Assembly (NCBI RefSeq): GCF_900141815.1
Contig: NZ_FQYR01000002.1
Location: 659,091-723,090, forward strand
Reading direction: 5' to 3'
DNA: 64,000 bases
Source of the DNA: Rubritalea squalenifaciens DSM 18772
Lineage (GTDB): Bacteria > Verrucomicrobiota > Verrucomicrobiia > Verrucomicrobiales > Akkermansiaceae
Positions 35,444 to 63,093 of the stretch are shown piece by piece (within the stretch, counting starts at the first letter, position 1; every line of letters begins with the position of its first letter). Below the pieces are notes generated by a model. That model searched no databases, was not told where the DNA came from, and was given only the letters and a program-made list of their open reading frames with translations. A program made the position numbers and the translations under genes.

Positions 35444-35536
35444 GGTGTTATCCGCCAGCTGGTAGGTTAGCCGAGTGCCTATTAAGTTCAGAAATAATTG
35501 AACAGATGGGCTTGTCTGGATACTCATATACCTAGA

Positions 35537-36016
35537 ATGGCTGGTTCGAAACAACAGGATGGGCTGACAGTGGTCCAGGGGAGCATCGTGGAGGTTTTCT
35601 CTGATGGAGCCCGCTTACTAGGGTTGCCTAAATCAGTAGGGGAGATCTACGGACTTCTCTATGCGAGCAAAGAGCCTCAATCGCTGGATGATCTGGTTTC
35701 CAGGTTGGATGTCAGTAAGGGTACGGGGTCTCAAGGTTTGAAAATGCTTCGCACGCTCGGAGCGGTGAAGGTGGCATCCGGTGAAGATAGCCGCAAAACC
35801 TTCTACGAGGCGGATATAGAATTGAAGAGTCTAGTGGGCGGATTCATCAGGGAGCAGGTGCGACCTCACTTGGATAGTGCCAAGGGGAAGATTGCTACTT
35901 TGAAGGAGGAAGCGAAAGAGGACGAGTTCCTGCAGGTTCGCATTGATAAGCTTGAGACTTGGAGAAAGAAGGCAGCTTTGGTGTTGCCGGTAGTGCAGAA
36001 ATTCTTGGGAAGCTGA
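35537..36016 (+). CDS. MarR/GbsR-like winged-helix regulator
   Basis: The 159-aa protein has a winged-helix domain in its first 100 residues: GLPKSVGEIYGLLYASKEPQ, LDDLVSRLDVSKGTGSQGLK and LRTLGAVKV. A C-terminal helical part follows that could dimerise. The fold is that of the GbsR branch of the MarR family. The gene overlaps the NusG-like gene by one base (TGATG), so the two are coupled and probably control the polysaccharide locus together. The ligand is unknown. Confidence 0.85.
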   Translation: MAGSKQQDGLTVVQGSIVEVFSDGARLLGLPKSVGEIYGLLYASKEPQSLDDLVSRLDVSKGTGSQGLKMLRTLGAVKVASGEDSRKTFYEADIELKSLVGGFIREQVRPHLDSAKGKIATLKEEAKEDEFLQVRIDKLETWRKKAALVLPVVQKFLGS

Positions 36017-36555
36017 TGAGTGTAGAAAGGTCAGAGCCCAAGTGGTATGCCGTTCGTAGTCAAACCAAGCGAGAGCGCTTGGCTGCATGCACCTTGCGTG
36101 AAACTCTCAATATTCCCGTTTTAGCCCCGGTAGTGAAGTTCCAAAAGGCGACGCGCCGGGGCAAGATATGGTGGAGCGAAGCCATGTTCCCTGGCTACCT
36201 TTTCGCCAAGTTTGATCCAGAGGTGCTAGGTAGGCAGGTGGGTTATGCTCAGGGAGTGCTGTCGATGGTTAAATTTGGCCAGGTAGTGCCTCCGGTCCCG
36301 GATAGTTTTATCTCGGCCTTGCTAGAAGAGCTTGGTGATTCAGAGGAAATCCGCTTGCAGCATCAGGTTGATGTCGGCGGGTCCTATGAGATTGTTAGTG
36401 GTCCCTTGAGTGGTATCCAGGGGGAAGTTATCGAGGTTTTGCCGGGTAAAGAACGTGTGAGTTTGCTCATCGAGCTGCTGGGCCAGTCACAGAGGGTTGA
36501 CTTGAATTTGTATTCTCTCCTGCTGCCTGGGAGACCCAGCGAGATGGGTCACTAA
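36016..36555 (+). CDS. NusG-paralog antiterminator (RfaH/UpxY/LoaP-like)
   Basis: The 179-aa protein has an NGN domain (about residues 8-110: WYAVRSQTKRERLAACTLRE, WWSEAMFPGYLFAKFD, GVLSMVKFGQVVPPVPDSF) and a C-terminal KOW domain (about 120-170: VGGSYEIVSGPLSGIQGEVI). The arrangement is that of specialised NusG paralogs, which bind RNA polymerase at the start of long polysaccharide operons and suppress termination. A perfect ops element lies 220 bp downstream, before the operon genes, so this protein is the obvious candidate to read it. I chose the ATG at 36016; the frame extends back inside the previous gene. Confidence 0.92.
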   Translation: MSVERSEPKWYAVRSQTKRERLAACTLRETLNIPVLAPVVKFQKATRRGKIWWSEAMFPGYLFAKFDPEVLGRQVGYAQGVLSMVKFGQVVPPVPDSFISALLEELGDSEEIRLQHQVDVGGSYEIVSGPLSGIQGEVIEVLPGKERVSLLIELLGQSQRVDLNLYSLLLPGRPSEMGH

Positions 36556-36872
36556 GTCTCCTTGGAATACTTTATAAAGTCAGTAAGGAAAATTGCTTAG
36601 TATTCCTAAAATGTTGGCTGGGTAAATAAGTTCATTTTTTATTGAACTATATAAGCCCTCTGGTGTCTTCACTGTATAGTGAAGCTGTGCATCATGGCTC
36701 GGTTTCTTGAACAATGTTCTTGTAAGGATCTCACGCTAAAGGTTTTTCTGCGAAATTTCGCGGATTCTGACCAAGGGCGGTAGCGTGCCGCAAAGATGGT
36801 GAAAGGCTTATGACAAAAATAGTTTTGCTTCAGGCTTGTCAAAAATCCGGTTAATCCTTAGCAAGCCGCCAA
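36556..36872 (+). promoter_or_regulatory. Leader of the polysaccharide operon
   Basis: This 317-bp gene-free stretch precedes the operon genes. It contains a hairpin CTTCACT/AGTGAAG (36667-36684), the palindrome GAACAATGTTC (36709-36719), the palindrome GCGAAATTTCGC (36750-36761) and the ops element (36776-36787). No convincing -35/-10 pair can be named, although the AT-rich TATATAAG near 36648 could contribute. The layout (hairpins, then ops, then genes) recalls enterobacterial JUMPstart leaders. Confidence 0.6.
36776..36787 (+). promoter_or_regulatory. ops (operon polarity suppressor) element
   Basis: The sequence GGCGGTAGCGTG is identical to the enterobacterial ops element, at which RNA polymerase pauses and recruits RfaH through the non-template strand. 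It lies on the coding strand, in a leader, upstream of a long polysaccharide operon and downstream of a NusG-paralog gene. The context makes chance unlikely, although a 12-bp match alone would not be decisive. Confidence 0.75.
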
Positions 36873-37118
36873 GTGAACACAAGATTAAAAGAATCCCGAC
36901 GCCGAAGTGTCCTGAAAGGTCTCACCTGGAGATGCTTGGCAACTGCGACAACTTACCTCATCGCGCTGCTGTGGACCGGAGAGGTGAGTACTGCGGGTAA
37001 AATTGCCTTTGCCGAGTTCTTTATCAAATTCGGGGTTTATTACTTGCATGAGAGGGCCTGGCAGTGGACTCCTCGCAGCAGCAAATCTGACGATTCGCAA
37101 GCCGAACAAGTAGCTTAG
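36873..37118 (+). CDS. DUF2061 membrane protein
   Basis: The 81-aa protein has two short membrane segments in the DUF2061 pattern: RSVLKGLTWRCLATATTYLI, then GKIAFAEFFIKFGVYYLHER with AWQW after it. Genes of this family often stand next to sulfate-activation genes, as here (cysC begins 6 bp after the stop). The function is unknown. The start is a GTG. Confidence 0.87.
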   Translation: MNTRLKESRRRSVLKGLTWRCLATATTYLIALLWTGEVSTAGKIAFAEFFIKFGVYYLHERAWQWTPRSSKSDDSQAEQVA

Positions 37119-37124
37119 TAAAAA

Positions 37125-37703
37125 GTGACTAACATCTATCCAGAATTCGAAAGGCAGATTCCCCGTCAGGGGAAAGAAGAGCTGCTGAAGCAAAAGGGGC
37201 AGGCGATCTGGCTCTACGGACTCTCCGGATCAGGCAAATCCACCATCGCCAATGCTCTCGAAAAGCTTCTTCATGAGCAAGGGAGGTACGTGGTCATGGT
37301 GGACGGTGATAACTTGCGCAGCGGCTTGAATGCCGGGCTGGGATTCACTGATGAAGACCGTGAGGAGAATATCCGCCGCGCCAGTGAGGTGGTGAAGCTG
37401 CTGGTGAACAATGGAGCCATTGTCCTGGTGACCTTGATTACCCCGCAGGAAAAATTCCGCGCGATGGCTCGCGAAATCGTCGGTACAGATGACCTCAAGG
37501 AAGTCTATGTGAAAGCATCATTCGAGGCGTGCCAGCAACGTGATGTCAAAGGCCTCTATGCTAAAGCCGCCGCTGGTGGCGTGAAAAATTTCTCCGGCAA
37601 AACCTCAAACTTTGAGGAGCCGGAAACCCCAGATCTTACGATCAATACAGAAGAGAGCAGTGTGGAAGAAAGCGTTGCCCAAGTTTTGAAACTTATCATT
37701 TAA
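37125..37703 (+). CDS. cysC: Adenylylsulfate (APS) kinase
   Basis: The 192-aa enzyme phosphorylates APS to PAPS, the sulfate donor for sulfotransferases. It has the P-loop GLSGSGKST (about residues 33-41), VMVDGDNLRSGLNAGLGF, DREENIRRASEV and the FEACQQRDVKGLYAKA lid region. It starts at a GTG. Its place at the head of a polysaccharide locus points to PAPS for sulfating the polymer rather than for cysteine synthesis. Confidence 0.95.
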   Translation: MTNIYPEFERQIPRQGKEELLKQKGQAIWLYGLSGSGKSTIANALEKLLHEQGRYVVMVDGDNLRSGLNAGLGFTDEDREENIRRASEVVKLLVNNGAIVLVTLITPQEKFRAMAREIVGTDDLKEVYVKASFEACQQRDVKGLYAKAAAGGVKNFSGKTSNFEEPETPDLTINTEESSVEESVAQVLKLII

Positions 37704-37708
37704 TTTAT

Positions 37709-38614
37709 ATGTCCAATTACATCATTGATCACTTAAAGCAGTTGGAGGCTGAGGCTATCTACGTGCTGCGTGAGACTGCAGCTCAGTTCGAGAATCCGGC
37801 ACTTCTATTCTCCGGAGGTAAGGACTCCATCGTTATGGCTCACTTGGCATACAAGGCCTTTCACCCAGCTAAGTTGCCTTTCCCGTTGGTGCACGTGGAC
37901 ACCGGCCATAACTTCCCGGAAACCATCGAGTATCGTGACCGCTTCGTTGAGAAGCTGGGTGCCCGTCTTGTAGTCGGTAGCGTTCAGAAGTCTATCGACG
38001 AGGGTAAGGTGAAGGAGGAGACTGGTCCAGATGCCAGCCGTAATGCGCTTCAGACAGTGACTCTTTTGGATACGATCGAGGAGAACGCTTATGACGCCTG
38101 CCTCGGTGGTGGTCGTCGTGATGAAGAGAAGGCCCGTGCGAAAGAGCGTTTCTTCTCCCACCGTGATGACTTCGGTCAGTGGGATCCGAAGAACCAGCGC
38201 CCAGAGCTTTGGAATCTTTTCAATGGTCGTAAGCTTCAGGGTGAGCACTTCCGTGTCTTCCCTCTCTCCAACTGGACAGAAATGGATATCTGGCAGTACA
38301 TCAAAGAGGAGGACATCGAGCTACCATGTCTCTACTTTGCGGCCGAACGTGAGTGCTTGGTTCGTAATAACACCATCCTAGCCATTTCCGAGTTCGTTCA
38401 GCCTCGTGAAGGTGAAGTGGTCGAGAAGAAGAGCATCCGTTTCAGAACGATGGGTGATGCGACTATCACTGGTGCAGTGGAGTCCACCGCGACTGACTAC
38501 GATGCGATCATCGAAGAAGTGGCTGCGGCCAGGCAGACCGAGCGTGGCAACCGTGCTGATGACAAGCGCTCTGAAACTTCCATGGAGGACAGAAAGAAGG
38601 AAGGCTACTTTTAA
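37709..38614 (+). CDS. cysD: Sulfate adenylyltransferase subunit 2
   Basis: The 301-aa protein is the small subunit of ATP sulfurylase, which forms APS from ATP and sulfate. It shows the PP-loop (LLFSGGKDSIVMAHLA), PLVHVDTGHNFPETIEYRD, GGRRDEEKARAKER and the C-terminal FRTMGDATITG. It follows cysC by 5 bp and precedes cysN, the usual partner. Confidence 0.96.
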   Translation: MSNYIIDHLKQLEAEAIYVLRETAAQFENPALLFSGGKDSIVMAHLAYKAFHPAKLPFPLVHVDTGHNFPETIEYRDRFVEKLGARLVVGSVQKSIDEGKVKEETGPDASRNALQTVTLLDTIEENAYDACLGGGRRDEEKARAKERFFSHRDDFGQWDPKNQRPELWNLFNGRKLQGEHFRVFPLSNWTEMDIWQYIKEEDIELPCLYFAAERECLVRNNTILAISEFVQPREGEVVEKKSIRFRTMGDATITGAVESTATDYDAIIEEVAAARQTERGNRADDKRSETSMEDRKKEGYF

Positions 38615-38670
38615 GAATTAGCCTCAGGCCAGGAAGACACTAGACCAGAAACAAGAACACAGACATTCTC

Positions 38671-39915
38671 ATGGATTTACTTAGATTTACAACCGCAGGT
38701 TCCGTTGACGACGGTAAGTCGACGCTTATCGGGCGCCTGCTTTACGATTCAAAATCAATTTTCGAAGACCAGCTCGAAGCGGTGGAGCAAAGCTCCAAGA
38801 AGCGTGGTGATGAAGAGGTGAACCTCGCCCTTCTGACCGACGGGTTGAAAGCCGAGCGTGAGCAAGGTATTACCATTGATGTAGCCTACCGCTACTTCGC
38901 AACTCCGAAGCGCAAGTTCATCATCGCAGATACTCCCGGTCACATCCAGTACACCCGTAACATGGTGACTGGTGCTTCGACTGCTGACCTCGCTATCATT
39001 CTTATCGACGCCCGTAAGGGTGTGATCGAGCAGACCAAGCGTCACTCCTTCATTGCTAACCTGCTGCGTATTCAACACGTCGTGGTTGCGGTGAACAAGA
39101 TGGACCTTGTTGATTACTCCGAAGAGCGTTTCAATGAAATTGTCGAGGAGTTTGAAGAGTTGGCAAGCCGTCTCGGTAACATCGTGAATATCAAGGCGAT
39201 TCCTATTTCCGCACTCCGTGGTGACAACGTGGTGGATACTTCTGAGAATACACCATGGTATCAGGGTGGTTCACTTCTCTACCATTTGGAGAATGTCTAT
39301 GTAGGTGGTGTTGAGAACCATGTGGAAGCCCGTTTCCCTGTTCAGTGGGTGATTCGCCCTCACTCCAACGAGTGGCATGACTTCCGTGGCTTCGCTGGAC
39401 GTGTTGCGGGTGGTGTCTTCAAGCCTGGTGATGAAGTCTTGGCGCTTCCATCCGGTTTTAAATCTACGGTTAAGAGCATTCACTCGGCTGACGGTGACTT
39501 GGCAGAGGCCTTTGCTCCTCAGTCCGTTTCCATTACCTTGGCTGATGAGATTGATATCTCTCGTGGTGATATGATCGTGAAGCCGAACAACCCTCCTCAC
39601 AGCACCCAGGATCTGGAAGCGATGGTTTGCTGGTTTGGTGACACTCCAATGGCGGCACGTGGTAAGTACATCATTCGTCACACCGAGCAGGAAACCAAGG
39701 CGATGGTTCAGTCCCTTGATTACCAGGTGGATGTGAATACCTTCCACAAGCTCGATGAGGTGGAGACTCTCAAGATGAACGACATCGGTAGAATCAAAGT
39801 TCGTACAGCTAAAGCTCTGCACGTGGATTCCTACAGTAAGAACCGTCACACCGGTTCCTTCATTCTGATCGATCCGCAGACGAATGCGACTGTTGCGGCC
39901 GGTATGATCATCTAA
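38671..39915 (+). CDS. cysN: Sulfate adenylyltransferase subunit 1 (GTPase)
   Basis: This 414-aa EF-Tu-like GTPase drives APS formation by CysD. G1 is GSVDDGKST (about residues 10-18), G3 [17 protein letters not shown] and G4 NKMD, followed by two beta-barrel domains. It is a stand-alone CysN without a fused APS kinase domain; cysC is separate upstream. A long minus-strand frame opposite it is a shadow. Confidence 0.96.
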
Positions 39916-47529: not shown

Positions 47530-49860
47530 ATGACCATCAAACCTAATGTGCTGAAAGGCATCTTTAGCAGTTTGTTGATTATCGTTTGTGTGGTGGCAGC
47601 CTTGAGTCCGGCTCTGTTCGGAGACAAGGTCATTGCTCCAGCTGATATCACCAAGACAATGCTGCCGCCATGGGGGAGTGCTGATGCGGGCGAGAAGCCC
47701 CATAATCACTTCACTTCAGATGCTGTCACCCAGTATTTGCCTTACCGGATTCATGCCAAGCAATCGCTGGATGATGATGGTTATGTAGGGTGGAATCCAT
47801 ATTCCATGGGAGGCTCTAACATGGCAGGCAATACCATGGCTTTGCCTGGGAGTTGGAGTACCCACCTCTTGAAGTACACCAGTGTCACCTGTGCTTGGAA
47901 CTGGTCGATCGCTATCGAATTGATGATAGCTGGGCTGGGGATGCTGGCATTCCTGAAAAGTAGAAAGCTAGGATGGATTGTTTCTGTGGCGGGCGCCTTG
48001 TTCTATATGGGGAATACTCAGTTCGTTATTTGGATCAACCACCGCTGGGCTCTGGGTTCATTCTGTTGGATGCCGTGGGTGCTGTGGGCTGCTTCGGACG
48101 GACTCGCTCTCAAGAGATTATGGGGCCGTGTGTGGTGGCTGCCCTTATTCCTCTGTTTGGCGATGGCTGGCGGATCGTTGCAGCATGTAGCCTTCATCGT
48201 GTTGGCTTGCATGTGCCTATGGGCCGGGAGCCTGAGGGCCAATAGCTTGATAAGCCAAGGAAAGAGTGAATTACTTGGATGGGGACTGGTGGGAAGCATC
48301 GCCTTGGTGATGGTAGCGTATACTTTGGTTCCCCAGTTGATGGCCTACGAGACGAATGTGGACGTTGGTCACACGAGGGGGGGGATTGGTTATCCGCATG
48401 GGATCCTTCAGCCGCTCTACAACCTGGTTGGGATTCCCGCACAAGTATGGCCTTGGCTGGTGGGCGATGCTCAGACTCTGGATGGCTGGAAGCTACTTAA
48501 AATGAATTATATGAACGTGGCCTACTTTGGGACGATTCCCATGCTTCTGGCTTACATCGGTCTCTTCGTTAAAAAGATGCCCCGTCAGGCGAAGTGGCTT
48601 ATTCTGGTTGGGGTTTTATTACCCCTTACACCCTTGGTGGGACCCTTGTATCATCGGGTACAAATCTTGTTTATCCTGGGAGGCTGTTGGATGGCGGCTG
48701 AAATGTTAGCCTACTGCTCTCAAAAGCCCTTACCTCGATTCGTCAATAGGGGATTGGTTGGGGTGGTCGCTATGATTGGTTTAGCTCTCATCGTGGGAGA
48801 GTGTTTGCCTGGATCATTGCAGAGCAGTATAGAGAACAAGGTGGTAGCTGCTGCGATCAGCGCCTCAGAAAATGCTCAGTTTTCCGGTGACCAGGCGTGG
48901 TTTAAGGCACGTGCTCTGGAGTGGGTGGATCGCTTTAGTATAGGGAATACGCATACCCTGTGGGTCTATGGCTTGCTCGTGCTGGGGAGTGTGGGGTTTG
49001 AGATGTTGAGCAAATTCTCCAAAAAACTCAAGCTGGTCGGAGTTTGCTTGATTCTCGTGGCTTCGTCAGCCGAGCTGATGACCTTTTACCGCGCTTATGT
49101 CACTTACTCGGATAAGGAGGATATCCGGCCTCGTCATGAATCGATTACCTTCACCAAAAAAATAGCTGGTGGAGATCTGGTTCTGCAGGGAATGAGTGAG
49201 TTAAGCATGCCACAGTGTTTTGCGGGCCCGAACCTCTTGTCGGCCTATGACGTTCATGCTCTGGATGCCTACGAGAGCATCCAGTACCGTTCAATATATC
49301 GGGTCACTGAATCATTGGAAGAGCATGAACGCCTCTCTCTTGCTGGGGTGAAAATAGCGATTAACCCGATAGACCATGGACCTTTTAAGGGGACTGAGGA
49401 GTGGAAGGTTGTTCATCAGGCAGAGGGGTTTGAGTGGAGAGAAAATCCTGAGAGCCTTGCCTCTATTTTAGTGGGTGAGGGGGATGCCCCAGCTGATTTG
49501 GAGAGCCTTTCGATGAATCTGCAGAAGGCAATGCCCATAGAGCCAGTGTGGCAGTCCATGAACGCGGTGTCAGTCAAACTCCCCAGTGATGTAGCTTGGC
49601 TGAGGTGGCGGCAGAACTGGCATCCCGGATGGCAATGGCGCCAATCTGAAGACGCTGAATGGCAACCTGTTGAAAGAGGTGTGGATGGCGCCTGCTGGAT
49701 TGCCAATTCTGGCGCTACATGGCTGCAAATACGCTTTACCCCGGTCTCTACCCAGATCGACATTGTGTCCTGGGGAGTGGTTTTCGTCTGGCTGGCTGTT
49801 GGTCTAGTCATCGTCTTTTTAAAATATCTCAGAACGAGAGCTGGCCATGCTGGGTCTTAG
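47530..49860 (+). CDS. Large polytopic membrane protein, YfhO/GT-C-like
   Basis: The 776-aa protein has about 11-13 membrane segments in its first 520 residues and a soluble C-terminal part (about 530-745) ahead of a final membrane helix. The region DAVTQYLPYRIHAKQSL, then GWNPYSMGGSNMAGN, is of the kind seen in YfhO-like proteins, which are GT-C-fold transferases that modify envelope polymers. The gene starts 5 bp after the WecG-like gene. A role in decorating the polymer is inferred; the family assignment is moderate. Confidence 0.75.
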   Translation: MTIKPNVLKGIFSSLLIIVCVVAALSPALFGDKVIAPADITKTMLPPWGSADAGEKPHNHFTSDAVTQYLPYRIHAKQSLDDDGYVGWNPYSMGGSNMAGNTMALPGSWSTHLLKYTSVTCAWNWSIAIELMIAGLGMLAFLKSRKLGWIVSVAGALFYMGNTQFVIWINHRWALGSFCWMPWVLWAASDGLALKRLWGRVWWLPLFLCLAMAGGSLQHVAFIVLACMCLWAGSLRANSLISQGKSELLGWGLVGSIALVMVAYTLVPQLMAYETNVDVGHTRGGIGYPHGILQPLYNLVGIPAQVWPWLVGDAQTLDGWKLLKMNYMNVAYFGTIPMLLAYIGLFVKKMPRQAKWLILVGVLLPLTPLVGPLYHRVQILFILGGCWMAAEMLAYCSQKPLPRFVNRGLVGVVAMIGLALIVGECLPGSLQSSIENKVVAAAISASENAQFSGDQAWFKARALEWVDRFSIGNTHTLWVYGLLVLGSVGFEMLSKFSKKLKLVGVCLILVASSAELMTFYRAYVTYSDKEDIRPRHESITFTKKIAGGDLVLQGMSELSMPQCFAGPNLLSAYDVHALDAYESIQYRSIYRVTESLEEHERLSLAGVKIAINPIDHGPFKGTEEWKVVHQAEGFEWRENPESLASILVGEGDAPADLESLSMNLQKAMPIEPVWQSMNAVSVKLPSDVAWLRWRQNWHPGWQWRQSEDAEWQPVERGVDGACWIANSGATWLQIRFTPVSTQIDIVSWGVVFVWLAVGLVIVFLKYLRTRAGHAGS

Positions 49861-49884
49861 CTCTAAACTGCAAAAAAGAATCTT

Positions 49885-51405
49885 ATGAACAATACCGTTA
49901 AGCTGATCATATTTACCGTGATTGCCATTATTATGGCGATCTACGTGGGGATGGGTATCGCTACTTCGCAATTCCAGACTGCATTGGAAGTGCTCGGGGT
50001 CGGGGTGATTTTGATCTGTATCGTATTGGGAAGAAACATCTGGATGCTGATTCCTTTCACTTACGCGGTAGGTCTTAAGTTGGCCTTGCCAGGAAATCCA
50101 TCGACTCTATTGCTTGGCCAATTATTGTTTGTCGGGTTTGGGTGTATGATCTTCGCGATGCGGAGCAGTCTGTTCCACTTCAGGTTTACGGAGATAGAGT
50201 TTTTGATGGGCTTGATGACGCTGATGGTCCTTCAGGTGTATGTGCGAAATCCTACTGGTTTCAGCTTGTTTGGGACGGAAAGTGTGGGTGGTAAGCCTTA
50301 TGTCATTTATGGAGTGACGCTTCTGTGTGCAATCTTACTGAGTGGGATTAGAATCCTCCCGAGGGATCTGAAGCTTTTCGTGAAAATTACGATTATCGGA
50401 GGGATCATTAATTTTGTGATCGGGGTGATAGGCTATTTTATCCCAATTGTTGCAGCCTACACTGGGACCTTCAGGCAAAAGTCAGCCGAATTGGAGTTTC
50501 ATTATTATAACCCAGACGCTGCCACGCGTATGGACTTCATCAAGAATACAGGACCCAACGTAGCCCTGTGGGTTTCCTCTTTTGTGAACCCATTGAAAGC
50601 CTGTTTTAAAGTTTTGTGGGCCCCTCTCATTCTCTTTTCCTTTGCCGCTGCGGGTCTTTCCGGGTACCGAAATGTGGTGGTTACTGTGGGTCTGACTTAT
50701 CTGGTAGGTATCTGTTACCGAGGTGGGATAAAGTCATTGATGGCCTCATTGATGTTGTTGGTTCTGACTCTGACTAGCTTGACTGTCCTTAACATGGCTG
50801 TTCCACTACCGGCTAACATTCAGCGTTCACTTTCCTGGCTTCCCGGCTCTTGGGAAGAGCAGTATGTAGATGATGCGGAGGAGTCTACGAACTGGCGCTT
50901 TGAAATTTGGGAAGAGGTTTTGCTTACTGATAACTGGATTGAAAACAAGATCCTAGGTGACGGTTTGGGGTATACGGCCACTGAGCTGGCGATGCAGCAG
51001 AACTTTGGTACCTATGTCGGAGGCATGGGCTTGTCAGGATTCGATTTGCACCGTGAAACAATCCTAGTAAATGGTGATTATCACAGTGGCCCGGTGAGTG
51101 CTGTTCGTGTGATTGGTTATGTAGGACTGGCACTGATGCTATTCATGATGCTCAGGCTCTGTGTGCATGCCCATCGTTTGATTAAGAGGTGTAAAAATAC
51201 CGAGTGGTTACCACTAGCGTTAATGGTGGGTATTCCTCTGATCGTTTTCCCCATCTTTTTCATTTTTGTCTATGGCTCTTTCCAAGATGACGCGGCGACG
51301 CTTCTGTTGGGTTGTGGGCTGATTCGTATGCTGGAGAATAACATCCCTTATCCTAGGCCTGAGGAAGAGTCACCTGATCCCGAGGGAGAGCCGCTCGTAT
51401 TGTAG
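49885..51405 (+). CDS. O-antigen ligase/polymerase-like membrane protein (Wzy-type)
   Basis: The 506-aa protein has about 10-12 membrane segments and a large periplasmic loop (about residues 310-395) between late helices, with DNWIENKILGDGLGY and FGTYVGGMGLSGFDLHRE. The layout matches O-antigen polymerases/ligases. It ends in an acidic Pro/Glu-rich tail (RPEEESPDPEGEP). It is followed 31 bp later by the flippase-like gene, as in Wzx/Wzy loci. Confidence 0.82.
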   Translation: MNNTVKLIIFTVIAIIMAIYVGMGIATSQFQTALEVLGVGVILICIVLGRNIWMLIPFTYAVGLKLALPGNPSTLLLGQLLFVGFGCMIFAMRSSLFHFRFTEIEFLMGLMTLMVLQVYVRNPTGFSLFGTESVGGKPYVIYGVTLLCAILLSGIRILPRDLKLFVKITIIGGIINFVIGVIGYFIPIVAAYTGTFRQKSAELEFHYYNPDAATRMDFIKNTGPNVALWVSSFVNPLKACFKVLWAPLILFSFAAAGLSGYRNVVVTVGLTYLVGICYRGGIKSLMASLMLLVLTLTSLTVLNMAVPLPANIQRSLSWLPGSWEEQYVDDAEESTNWRFEIWEEVLLTDNWIENKILGDGLGYTATELAMQQNFGTYVGGMGLSGFDLHRETILVNGDYHSGPVSAVRVIGYVGLALMLFMMLRLCVHAHRLIKRCKNTEWLPLALMVGIPLIVFPIFFIFVYGSFQDDAATLLLGCGLIRMLENNIPYPRPEEESPDPEGEPLVL

Positions 51406-51436
51406 CGCGTTTATGCATTGCTGACTTGTCGTCCTG

Positions 51437-52948
51437 ATGAATATCAAGCAGGAGTTATCGAAAACCGTAGCCAGTTCATGGGGCTCACTCGTCGTTGTTA
51501 CAGTGACTCAGCTCTTGATGATCCCTGTGGCCTTGTCGGTTTTGTCGAATGCCGAGTTCGCGCTGTTTGCTGTCATTGCACAGTTGATGAATACCATACG
51601 TCTGGCTGAGATTGGAGTGCGTGCTGCGTGTGTTCGTCTTCTTGTGGATGTCCAGGTCAAAGATGAAAAGAGGTATGCGCAGATGTGGTCCTCGGCTGTT
51701 TTTGTCTTCTTGCTACAGGGAGGAGTCATCCTTGTGACAGTGGCAACCATCGCTCCCTTCATCGGGGCTTTGTATAATCTGGATGGTTACTTGAGGGCAC
51801 TTGGTACGCAGGTCTTCTGCGCCATGGGCATTATCACAGCTTTAAATTATGTTCTAAGTGTGCATGCCGCTGCCATGTTAGCGGGCCAGAGATTGTACGT
51901 GGTCAATATCATTGCAATCGTGGGGGCCTTGCTTGATCTGGTGATCTTTGTTTGCTGTATCAAGCTGGACTTTGGATTGTGGTCCTATGTGATAGCCGTA
52001 TTCAGCACGACGTTGTTTAAGTCCTATTATATCAGGCACTATTCCAAACGTTTGGGCTCATCCCGGAAGTTCTACTGGGCGGATGTCAAAGCTGAAAATG
52101 TGAAGATGATTTTCAAGCTTGGGTTGGATGTGGCGATTGGCTCGGTCTATACAGTAGTCTTGGGGAGTACATTGCTTATCTTCAGTGGTAATCTACTATC
52201 GCTGGGTATCACCGCTGTACTGGCCGTAAATATGAAGCTCATAAACACCATCAATCAGATACTGCAGCGTATTCCAGGTTCAGCAGATCCTGTATTGATG
52301 AAGTTAGTGAGTGAGGAGAAAATCGATGATTTCTATAAATGGTGGAAGCTGGTAGTTAAAGGCTCTATTTTTCTGTCTCTTTTGGCGTGTGGTGGTTATC
52401 TACTATGGGGTAATTATATAGTGTCCCTGTGGGTGGGTGAGGAAATGACACTGGATGGAATGCACTTGGTGTTGATTGCATTTATGCCTGTCCGCTATAT
52501 CATACACTATGTGTTCGTGCTCTCTTTGGGGGTATTTAAAGAGTTACGAAAAGTGAAGTTTCCGTTGATTTGGGAAATGGCTTTGTACGTCGCATTGGTA
52601 TATTGGCTAACTCCTCGCTACGGATTGACAGGCTTATTGGTTGCTAATTTAGCAAGTTTGACGGGAGGCTCGCTCTTGTTTGGTATCAAGTGGTTGTCAA
52701 TTTTGACGATTAGGCCTTATTCGAATGTCTTCATGCTCATGCTCAAATCTGCTCTGCCACTGTGTGTGGCCGTAATGGTATTATATAAATGGTTGGCAGG
52801 GAGTGAGCTGCAGTTTCTGTCGTTGTTCATCATGACGATAGTATGGTGTTTGGCAGCGGTTATTCTGCTAGTTTATGTAATTCTTGACGCCCAAGAGCGG
52901 AATAGGGTTTTTGAGCTGGTTCGAAGTGCTAAGGCCAAAATAAGCTGA
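51437..52948 (+). CDS. Polysaccharide flippase-like protein (Wzx-type)
   Basis: This 503-aa protein has about 12-14 membrane segments spread evenly. The N-terminus is typical of MATE/MVF-like Wzx proteins (SSWGSLVVVTVTQLLMIPVA, then LSVLSNAEFALFAVIAQL). It should move undecaprenyl-linked repeat units across the inner membrane. It is adjacent to the Wzy-like gene and the transferases. Confidence 0.88.
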   Translation: MNIKQELSKTVASSWGSLVVVTVTQLLMIPVALSVLSNAEFALFAVIAQLMNTIRLAEIGVRAACVRLLVDVQVKDEKRYAQMWSSAVFVFLLQGGVILVTVATIAPFIGALYNLDGYLRALGTQVFCAMGIITALNYVLSVHAAAMLAGQRLYVVNIIAIVGALLDLVIFVCCIKLDFGLWSYVIAVFSTTLFKSYYIRHYSKRLGSSRKFYWADVKAENVKMIFKLGLDVAIGSVYTVVLGSTLLIFSGNLLSLGITAVLAVNMKLINTINQILQRIPGSADPVLMKLVSEEKIDDFYKWWKLVVKGSIFLSLLACGGYLLWGNYIVSLWVGEEMTLDGMHLVLIAFMPVRYIIHYVFVLSLGVFKELRKVKFPLIWEMALYVALVYWLTPRYGLTGLLVANLASLTGGSLLFGIKWLSILTIRPYSNVFMLMLKSALPLCVAVMVLYKWLAGSELQFLSLFIMTIVWCLAAVILLVYVILDAQERNRVFELVRSAKAKIS

Positions 52949-57674: not shown

Positions 57675-57717
57675 GATAGATTAATGTGGCTGTGGTATTT
57701 TCGCGTTTAATTTGAAT

Positions 57718-58512
57718 ATGTTCGATCACAAGGTAAAAAGTTTTATCCACCAATTCAGGCAAAGCCCTCGTTATGCTATACGGCGGTTAGTTGGATATTT
57801 TCAACCTCCCCTCTATTTATTTCAAATGGGTAAGGTGGGCTCCAATACCCACATGAATACCCTGCAGCTGCAGTATCGAATCTATCATAGCCATACTGCT
57901 GAAGATTTTATAAGTAAGCTAGAGCGCAACAATAATAACGAGCAGGTAATAGAGCTTATAACGGCCACACGAGATCCAGTGAGTAGGAAGGTATCGACCT
58001 TTTTTCAGAACATAATAGATGGGCCATATGACTATGCGTTTGGTAGCCAAGAAAAAGTGCTAGATGCGGGGATGGACGAATTGTTGAGACGTTTTCAAAC
58101 CTGGCAGGAGGGAATTGAAGAGGCGACAGGCTGGTTTGATAAGCATTTTTTTAGTGCCACTGGAATTGATGTTTATGCCAATCCTTTCGAAAAAGATAAA
58201 GGCTGGCAGATCATTGAGCAGGGGAAGTGGCGTGTGCTAATTCTGCGGTATGAGGACATTTCCGTCAACCATGTCGATGCGCTGAATGATTTTGTGAGTA
58301 GGCGTTACGGGGATAGAGTTACATATAAGGAACTCAAAAGTAAGAATCTGTCGTCAGGTAAATGGTACTCAGGTTTAATGAAGACTTTCTATGAGCAGAT
58401 TAAGTTTTCACAAGAAGAAATGGCGGCCGCCTATGATTCTAAATATGCACATCATTTCTATTCCGATGATGAGTTGAGGAAGATGAAAGCACGATGGAAT
58501 CATCAGGGATGA
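57718..58512 (+). CDS. NKWYS-type putative sulfotransferase (capsule synthesis family)
   Basis: The 264-aa protein matches the putative capsular polysaccharide synthesis family named for the motif NKWYS; here it reads NLSSGKWYS (about residues 210-218). It also has FQMGKVGSNT (36-44), which resembles the 5'-phosphosulfate loop of PAPS-dependent sulfotransferases, and TRDPVSRKVSTF, which resembles the 3'-phosphate site. With cysC, cysD and cysN in the same locus, transfer of sulfate to the polymer is the best reading. I chose the ATG at 57718 over the TTG at 57712. Confidence 0.85.
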   Translation: MFDHKVKSFIHQFRQSPRYAIRRLVGYFQPPLYLFQMGKVGSNTHMNTLQLQYRIYHSHTAEDFISKLERNNNNEQVIELITATRDPVSRKVSTFFQNIIDGPYDYAFGSQEKVLDAGMDELLRRFQTWQEGIEEATGWFDKHFFSATGIDVYANPFEKDKGWQIIEQGKWRVLILRYEDISVNHVDALNDFVSRRYGDRVTYKELKSKNLSSGKWYSGLMKTFYEQIKFSQEEMAAAYDSKYAHHFYSDDELRKMKARWNHQG

Positions 58513-62038: not shown

Positions 62039-63093
62039 ATAGTTTCTGTAAGCAAGACCGGGAATTCCTGAAGTCCATTGAAGGGCAGGGGAGCATTGTC
62101 TCTGCCAACAAGTGTTACGGCTTGTCCAGGTATGGAAATTTGCTACTTGTCTTGCCGCAGGATAGGAAGCTCTCCTTGAAGACCCTGAGCCTCTATCAGC
62201 CGCAGAAGACCCTGGTGAAGGCTCTGGTAGTCTTGTTTACATGGTTTGTTAGATTGGGGGGAGTTAGGTTGCTCAAACCGATTTCTCTGGAGATCAGGGA
62301 GTCAAGTCCACTGGCGCACATTGCGGGGGATGGGCAGTTTGGCTTTCTACTTGGTAATCCTACAAGGGATGCCCGGCGACTCATCTGTCTCTATGAGAAA
62401 GACGGTCAGAGCCTCGTCGGGAAGTTTGGTGTCGGTGGGAGGTCCCGGGATACTGTGGTGAAAGAAATTGAAATTCTTCAGGGGGATGTTCGTGGTTTAG
62501 AAGGAGTGCCAGAAATTTTATCCTCTCAGATCGAAGATCAGTACGCCTATTACGCTGTGCCTTGGATGGATGGTCGTTCACCTTCGGTAAAGGATCAAGG
62601 TTATTTGTTAGATCTGCTGAGGTCCTGGGAGAGAGGAATCGCTAAAGTAGCTGTCAGGGAACTGCCGTTTTGGGAGGAGCTCTACAGAATGGTTGCTTCG
62701 AATGAAGAACGCGCAATCTTGGACGGATATGCTAATCTGAATTTGAGGGAATCCGTGATTCATGGAGATTTTACGCCTTGGAATGTGAAATGTCTGAGCC
62801 AAGGCGGGGTTGCGGTGTTAGACTGGGAATTTTGTAGACCTGATGGTGTAGCTGGTTTGGATGTGGCTCACTACCTGATCCAGCCCCTGATTCTCGTAAA
62901 GAAAATGTCAGCCTCTGAGGCTCTGAAGGCAGCATTGGAGTGGGGAGCAAATGAGGGCAGAGACTACCTGCATCATGCCGGCTGGGGGGGGCAAGTTCAG
63001 GCTTGGCTGGGCATCTACCTGTTCTATTCACACTACGTGTTGAAACTGAATCATCGTGATTTGATTGAATGCTGGAAAAAAGAAAGAGTGTAG
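62035..63093 (+). CDS. Aminoglycoside-phosphotransferase-fold (APH-like) kinase
   Basis: The 352-aa protein has a protein-kinase-like C-terminal half with the catalytic loop HGDFTPWN (about residues 243-250) and DWEF (about 263-266), as in APH/choline-kinase proteins. The N-terminal half is poorly conserved. In polysaccharide loci such proteins are thought to phosphorylate a sugar or lipid precursor. The gene overlaps both neighbours, at 62035-62038 and 63069-63093. Substrate unknown. Confidence 0.82.
   Translation: MNSFCKQDREFLKSIEGQGSIVSANKCYGLSRYGNLLLVLPQDRKLSLKTLSLYQPQKTLVKALVVLFTWFVRLGGVRLLKPISLEIRESSPLAHIAGDGQFGFLLGNPTRDARRLICLYEKDGQSLVGKFGVGGRSRDTVVKEIEILQGDVRGLEGVPEILSSQIEDQYAYYAVPWMDGRSPSVKDQGYLLDLLRSWERGIAKVAVRELPFWEELYRMVASNEERAILDGYANLNLRESVIHGDFTPWNVKCLSQGGVAVLDWEFCRPDGVAGLDVAHYLIQPLILVKKMSASEALKAALEWGANEGRDYLHHAGWGGQVQAWLGIYLFYSHYVLKLNHRDLIECWKKERV

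Follow-up and report, generated by a model that had tools for sequence, protein, structure and literature searches.

In E. coli, the ops element brings RfaH to RNA polymerase as transcription of long sugar-coat operons begins, and RfaH suppresses pausing and termination. LoaP binds an RNA hairpin, and we know of no ops described for LoaP (Bacillota) or UpxY (Bacteroidota). RfaH homologues have already been reported outside Proteobacteria, in 23 phyla, and sequence-specific recruitment at ops has been regarded as having arisen late in the RfaH lineage (PMC7593976). The JUMPstart RNA (Rfam RF01707) was listed by Weinberg et al. for Gammaproteobacteria only (PMC2864571). Our searches of the open-access literature found neither ops nor JUMPstart described in Verrucomicrobiota or anywhere else outside Proteobacteria. 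Here, we describe a leader from Rubritalea squalenifaciens DSM 18772 that probably is a verrucomicrobial JUMPstart/ops leader, recruiting a co-encoded NusG paralog in the manner of RfaH for a long operon. The window (the whole stretch of 64,000 nucleotides that was analysed) contains the following features:

35498-36016, + strand: winged-helix regulator gene, GbsR/CudC-like (NCBIfam CudC, E=1.8e-10, below its cut-off)
36016-36555, + strand: NusG paralog, an RfaH-like specialised NusG of 179 aa (PF02357, E=3.5e-10)
36556-36872, + strand: leader of 317 bp, from the paralog stop to the first operon gene (from the sequence)
36630-36647, + strand: palindrome GTTCATTTTTTATTGAAC, probable operator (unseeded motif search; conserved spacing)
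36741-36772, + strand: hairpin GGUU / 7-bp variable stem / loop / NN / GACC (covariation in relatives; covariance model R1)
36776-36787, + strand: ops element GGCGGTAGCGTG (exact match plus conserved motif)
36873-37118, + strand: first operon gene, a DUF2061 membrane protein with a GTG start at 36873 (PF09834, E=1.3e-18)
37125-63093, + strand: long co-directional polysaccharide operon (Pfam)

The preliminary description had placed an exact E. coli ops on the coding strand of the leader, between the NusG paralog and the first operon gene, and the sequence agrees: the 12-mer at 36776-36787 (+) equals the E. coli ops of the K-12 rfbB and waaQ leaders base for base, with T at position 6, and begins 220 bp after the end of the NusG-paralog gene. 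The same 12-mer occurs three times in the R. squalenifaciens genome (4.32 Mb), compared with one occurrence of the reversed-pattern control, and the remaining two copies are antisense, within a ligase-like gene and within ilvD. Background frequency had been proposed as grounds for rejecting the element, and the bare 12-mer is indeed near background in this genome, so that its frequency alone is unimpressive; as a refutation, however, this is misleading, and the decisive evidence is the position, the hairpin and the co-occurrence with the paralog rather than the frequency.

NusG-paralog homologues were present in 138 of 285 Verrucomicrobiia genomes, and 80 named paralog loci were added to those from the 285 genomes. 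The search of verrucomicrobial leaders for ops beside a NusG paralog, which the preliminary description had called for, was positive: among the 188 loci with enough sequence, GGCGGYAG lay within 800 bp downstream of the paralog gene on the coding strand in 101 and on the opposite strand in 8. An unseeded EM search of 161 non-redundant downstream regions returned ACCAAGGGCGGYAGCGTG as the top motif, with a log-likelihood of 1018 versus 84 for shuffled sequences, and this motif was found in about half of the regions. Position 6 was C in about 63-68% of the sites and T in about 32%; G4, G5, A7, G8 and C9 were near-invariant, while T11 was kept in about 94% and G12 in about 75%. Thus, the exact E. 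coli 12-mer, although present in the window, is not the usual form at these loci: about two thirds of sites have C at position 6, and a covarying hairpin and GACCAAG extend the element directly on its 5' side. In E. coli, RfaH is no longer recruited when ops carries the single substitution G4C, G5A, A7T or G8C; recruitment falls about threefold with T6A or C3G, and G12C causes loss of the pause (PMC5995543). With G4, G5, A7 and G8 near-invariant, the ops sites most important for RfaH are therefore kept here.

Most leaders read, from 5' to 3', GGTT, a variable 7-nt arm, a loop, the complementary 7-nt arm, two bases, GACC, AAG and ops, giving an 11-bp stem with a 2-nt bulge that ends 3 nt before ops. 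An RCCAAG extension of ops, considered as a pure sequence motif, was replaced by this hairpin, whose 3' arm ends in GACC. When loci were anchored only on GG[TC][TC] and RCC, with no use of folding, the inner stem was paired in 87.7% of cells (64 loci), compared with 56.5 ± 2.0% in 2000 shuffles of the arms and no more than 57% with slid arms. In alignment A5 (26 ungapped sequences), 93.4% of cells paired versus 77.4 ± 1.5% after shuffling, double-change cells numbered 58 versus 18.6 ± 5.6, and the covariation score was 0.53 versus 0.22; arm-shuffle contrasts are inflated by sequence kinship, and slid controls, which keep the kinship, drop to 26-55%. The A5 sequences were chosen partly by their predicted outer stem and equal length, and the outer pairs are therefore not independent evidence.

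We built a covariance model of the hairpin plus ops (R1) from verrucomicrobial leaders only. It matched the window at 36740-36788 with 36.8 bits and the E. coli rfb JUMPstart with 22.6 bits (E=3.7e-4), pairing UGG with CCA, much of the latter score coming from the shared ops. At E<=1e-4, R1 matched 39 of the 138 genomes with the paralog versus none of the 147 in which no paralog was detected, and 20 of the 39 positive genomes lay outside the family of the window. At E<=0.01, no R1 element was found in half of the paralog-bearing genomes; thus, some paralogs use another signal or one that R1 misses. A [GT]-GGCGG pattern occurred in 30/54 genomes with the paralog versus 5/61 without it (p=3.7e-8, which overstates the association because species are not phylogenetically independent), while the control sub-pattern with [AC] before GGCGG did not differ by paralog presence (p=0.48).

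Copies of the hairpin plus ops that were unlinked to the paralog gene in related genomes were mostly intergenic and ahead of co-directional runs. The Pfam assignments of the first genes behind them were led by nucleotide-sugar enzymes, glycosyltransferases and methyltransferases and included polysaccharide synthesis proteins. R. squalenifaciens itself carries a second complete element (L228:11888-11932, - strand, which is contig C2:321387-321431; 36.6 bits), with C at position 6, and this copy precedes a 207-aa ORF without a Pfam match and no recognisable polysaccharide operon.

A second unseeded motif, GTTCATTTTTnATTGAAC, was found about 123 bp upstream of the ops element at near-fixed spacing. 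It is matched exactly at 36630-36647 in the window, 139 bp upstream of the element, and in the family of the window the palindrome also stands 111-134 bp ahead of unlinked element copies. The palindrome-to-GGCGG composite occurred in 55 of 117 genomes of this family (control, 0), and GTTCATTTTTTATTGAAC has one exact copy in the R. squalenifaciens genome. The window leader yielded no sigma70 promoter; a -35-like TTGAAC in it is overlapped by the palindrome. The winged-helix gene overlaps the start of the NusG-paralog gene, and its homologue was directly upstream of the paralog in 117/190 loci, while the downstream genes varied. The palindrome is probably an operator, with the co-encoded winged-helix protein as its candidate binder. 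Genus g2 of the same family (e.g., G002, G019 and G028) had neither the NusG paralog nor the palindrome-ops composite, which suggests that the two were lost jointly.

The R. squalenifaciens genome encodes one housekeeping NusG and a single paralog, whose nearest named relative by identity is that of Rubritalea profundi (56%). The best NCBIfam model for the window paralog was RfaH (TIGR01955; 66.0 bits, under the cut-off of 144.5), followed by LoaP (NF033641; 52.8 bits, cut-off of 125 not reached), UpxY (NF033644; 50.4 bits, cut-off of 100 not reached) and NusG. The C-terminal domain of RfaH is alpha-helical in its autoinhibited state and switches to beta. For the window paralog, AF2 with 115 sequences gave a pLDDT of 84, the N-terminal domain being predicted confidently and the C-terminal domain as a beta-barrel; with 20 sequences the C-terminal domain was mixed and of low confidence. 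Foldseek matched the AF2 model to RfaH and NusG, with the RfaH N-terminal domain at 32% identity and an rmsd of 2.5. By sequence anchors rather than a solved structure, RfaH K10, H20, R23 and R73 correspond to Q16, T26, E29 and Q79 in the window protein; Q16 was kept in 48 of 53 ops-linked loci, and the H20 equivalent was present in many relatives' paralogs, though the window protein has T26. Since the E. coli ops-contact residues are replaced, the recognition chemistry must differ from that of RfaH. E55 and R147, the equivalents of E48 and R138, through which RfaH is autoinhibited between its domains, were invariant in 115 paralogs; only the glutamate is informative, because the arginine is also present in NusG. 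No clear partner among the protein residues was found for covariation with position 6 (T or C).

In a tree whose deep branches are weak and in which RfaH is a long branch, the verrucomicrobial paralogs grouped together in one clade (99/98) that included neither E. coli RfaH nor the alphaproteobacterial RfaH-like proteins nor NusG. A recent transfer of the protein is thus disfavoured, and the tree does not argue against an old common ancestry. It had been suggested beforehand that the ops code was older or more widespread than the proteobacterial examples, or was transferred. The wider distribution holds, as ops is conserved beside the paralog in Verrucomicrobiota, while transfer of the protein from Enterobacteria is disfavoured by the separate clade and by the contact residues being mostly absent. 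Alphaproteobacterial plasmid RfaH-like genes were rejected as carriers of this element, as five records had no linked ops within about 5 kb; ops linkage is therefore not a trivial property of RfaH-like loci.

Compared with the RfaH/ops system of Enterobacteria, the verrucomicrobial loci share the ops 12-mer in leaders of long polysaccharide operons, the specialised NusG paralog, the unlinked target operons, the conserved central ops bases and the invariant E48/R138 equivalents. However, position 6 is usually C rather than the T of E. coli, RfaH K10, R16 and R73 are mostly replaced by Q, I/L and Q, and the paralog is encoded beside a target operon together with a winged-helix partner. Additionally, the window protein falls below the RfaH cut-off, and AF2 favours a beta-barrel for its C-terminal domain. 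As in the JUMPstart RNA, a stem-loop stands directly 5' of GGGCGGUAGCGUG, upstream of polysaccharide genes. The Rfam model finds in E. coli rfb a 5-bp stem-loop 1 nt before ops (60 bits), whereas the window stem has 11 bp with a 2-nt bulge, the spacer to ops is 3 nt and the loop sequence differs. The same model gave a full-length alignment to the window at 36759-36787 with 15.6 bits, short of the gathering score of 35; 16 related loci likewise yielded no gathering match. LoaP and UpxY are likewise specialised NusG paralogs encoded beside the operons that they activate (PMC7819879), but the window protein is far under both NCBIfam cut-offs. The most fitting description of the locus is therefore a JUMPstart/ops variant of Verrucomicrobiota that has a dedicated subfamily of NusG paralogs and lies outside the curated RfaH and JUMPstart families by their cut-offs.

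In the mechanism that we propose, RNA polymerase would start upstream, probably at or near the palindrome, with the start perhaps controlled by the co-encoded winged-helix protein. The polymerase would transcribe the hairpin, reach ops and pause there. The paused RNA 3' end would lie at T11 of ops with the hairpin base about 14 nt away, a distance at which the hairpin could fold at the RNA exit and counteract backtracking. Through the non-template ops bases that are exposed, the paused polymerase would acquire the co-encoded NusG paralog, which would ride with it and, like RfaH, suppress pausing and termination through the polysaccharide operon.

Unlikely, though the strongest of the competing explanations, is a role of the element chiefly as RNA, in which the hairpin and the flanking GACCAAGGGCGG would be bound by the NusG paralog (compare LoaP) or by another factor and the likeness to ops DNA would be secondary. 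The strong hairpin covariation, a tree with no specific link between the paralog and RfaH, and the lack of conservation of the E. coli ops-contact residues would all be in line with this. However, the stem is free in sequence, yet the single-stranded ops bases that follow it are near-invariant, most sites keep the pause-type T11 G12, which fits a pause and non-template readout, and among the curated families RfaH scores higher than LoaP and is the best match. It is more improbable still that the leader serves as a pause RNA or leader RNA for attenuation, ribosome loading or transcript processing and has no need of the paralog, with shared polysaccharide loci explaining the co-occurrence. The association is correlative and the genomes are not phylogenetically independent, as such an explanation would allow, but the 147 genomes without a detected paralog had no R1 match at the stringent threshold, the paralog-less genus g2 also lacks the palindrome-ops composite, and unlinked element copies exist in paralog-bearing genomes.

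That the 12-mer is a chance match can draw only on the three genome copies against one for the control, and its probability is close to nil: a conserved motif stands at this position in dozens of loci, with the strand bias of 101 versus 8, and a covarying hairpin accompanies it, as does a palindrome at near-fixed spacing. We consider chance ruled out by the strand-specific position and the hairpin covariation. Under the preferred reading, a leader that recruits the co-encoded paralog, ops-type switching-on of long operons probably extends beyond Proteobacteria. With slightly more doubt than confidence, we further propose that the hairpin plus ops serves across phyla as a recruitment code, either inherited from a common ancestor of Proteobacteria and Verrucomicrobiota or arrived at twice, read by paralogs with diverged DNA contacts and with T6 relaxed to C, and combined in the family of the window with a dedicated winged-helix factor and an operator. 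If this is true, the module in that family would gate both the initiation and the elongation of surface-polysaccharide operons. With a conserved hairpin plus ops and a separate clade of NusG paralogs in Verrucomicrobiota, the age of the ops code becomes testable. These loci also offer a natural experiment, with protein contacts that change against a nearly fixed DNA signal, and they suggest that the little-studied JUMPstart hairpin is part of the signal.

The operon behind the leader encodes an APS kinase, a PAPS reductase-family protein, a GTPase subunit, a UDP-sugar dehydrogenase, epimerases and an aminotransferase, as well as WecG-type and GT1/GT2 glycosyltransferases and NKWYS. Three large operon proteins (776, 506 and 503 aa; window 47530-52948) had no Pfam match at E<=1e-6. 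The APS kinase, PAPS reductase-family and GTPase genes stand at the opening of the operon (window 37125-39915) and the NKWYS capsular protein inside it (57712-58512), which suggests that the product is a sulfated surface polysaccharide. On contig C1 of another genome (G263), hairpin-plus-ops matches were found at 62553, 71291 and 82635, on the same strand, about 10 kb apart and away from the NusG-paralog gene; these possibly are repeated reloading sites within one large locus.
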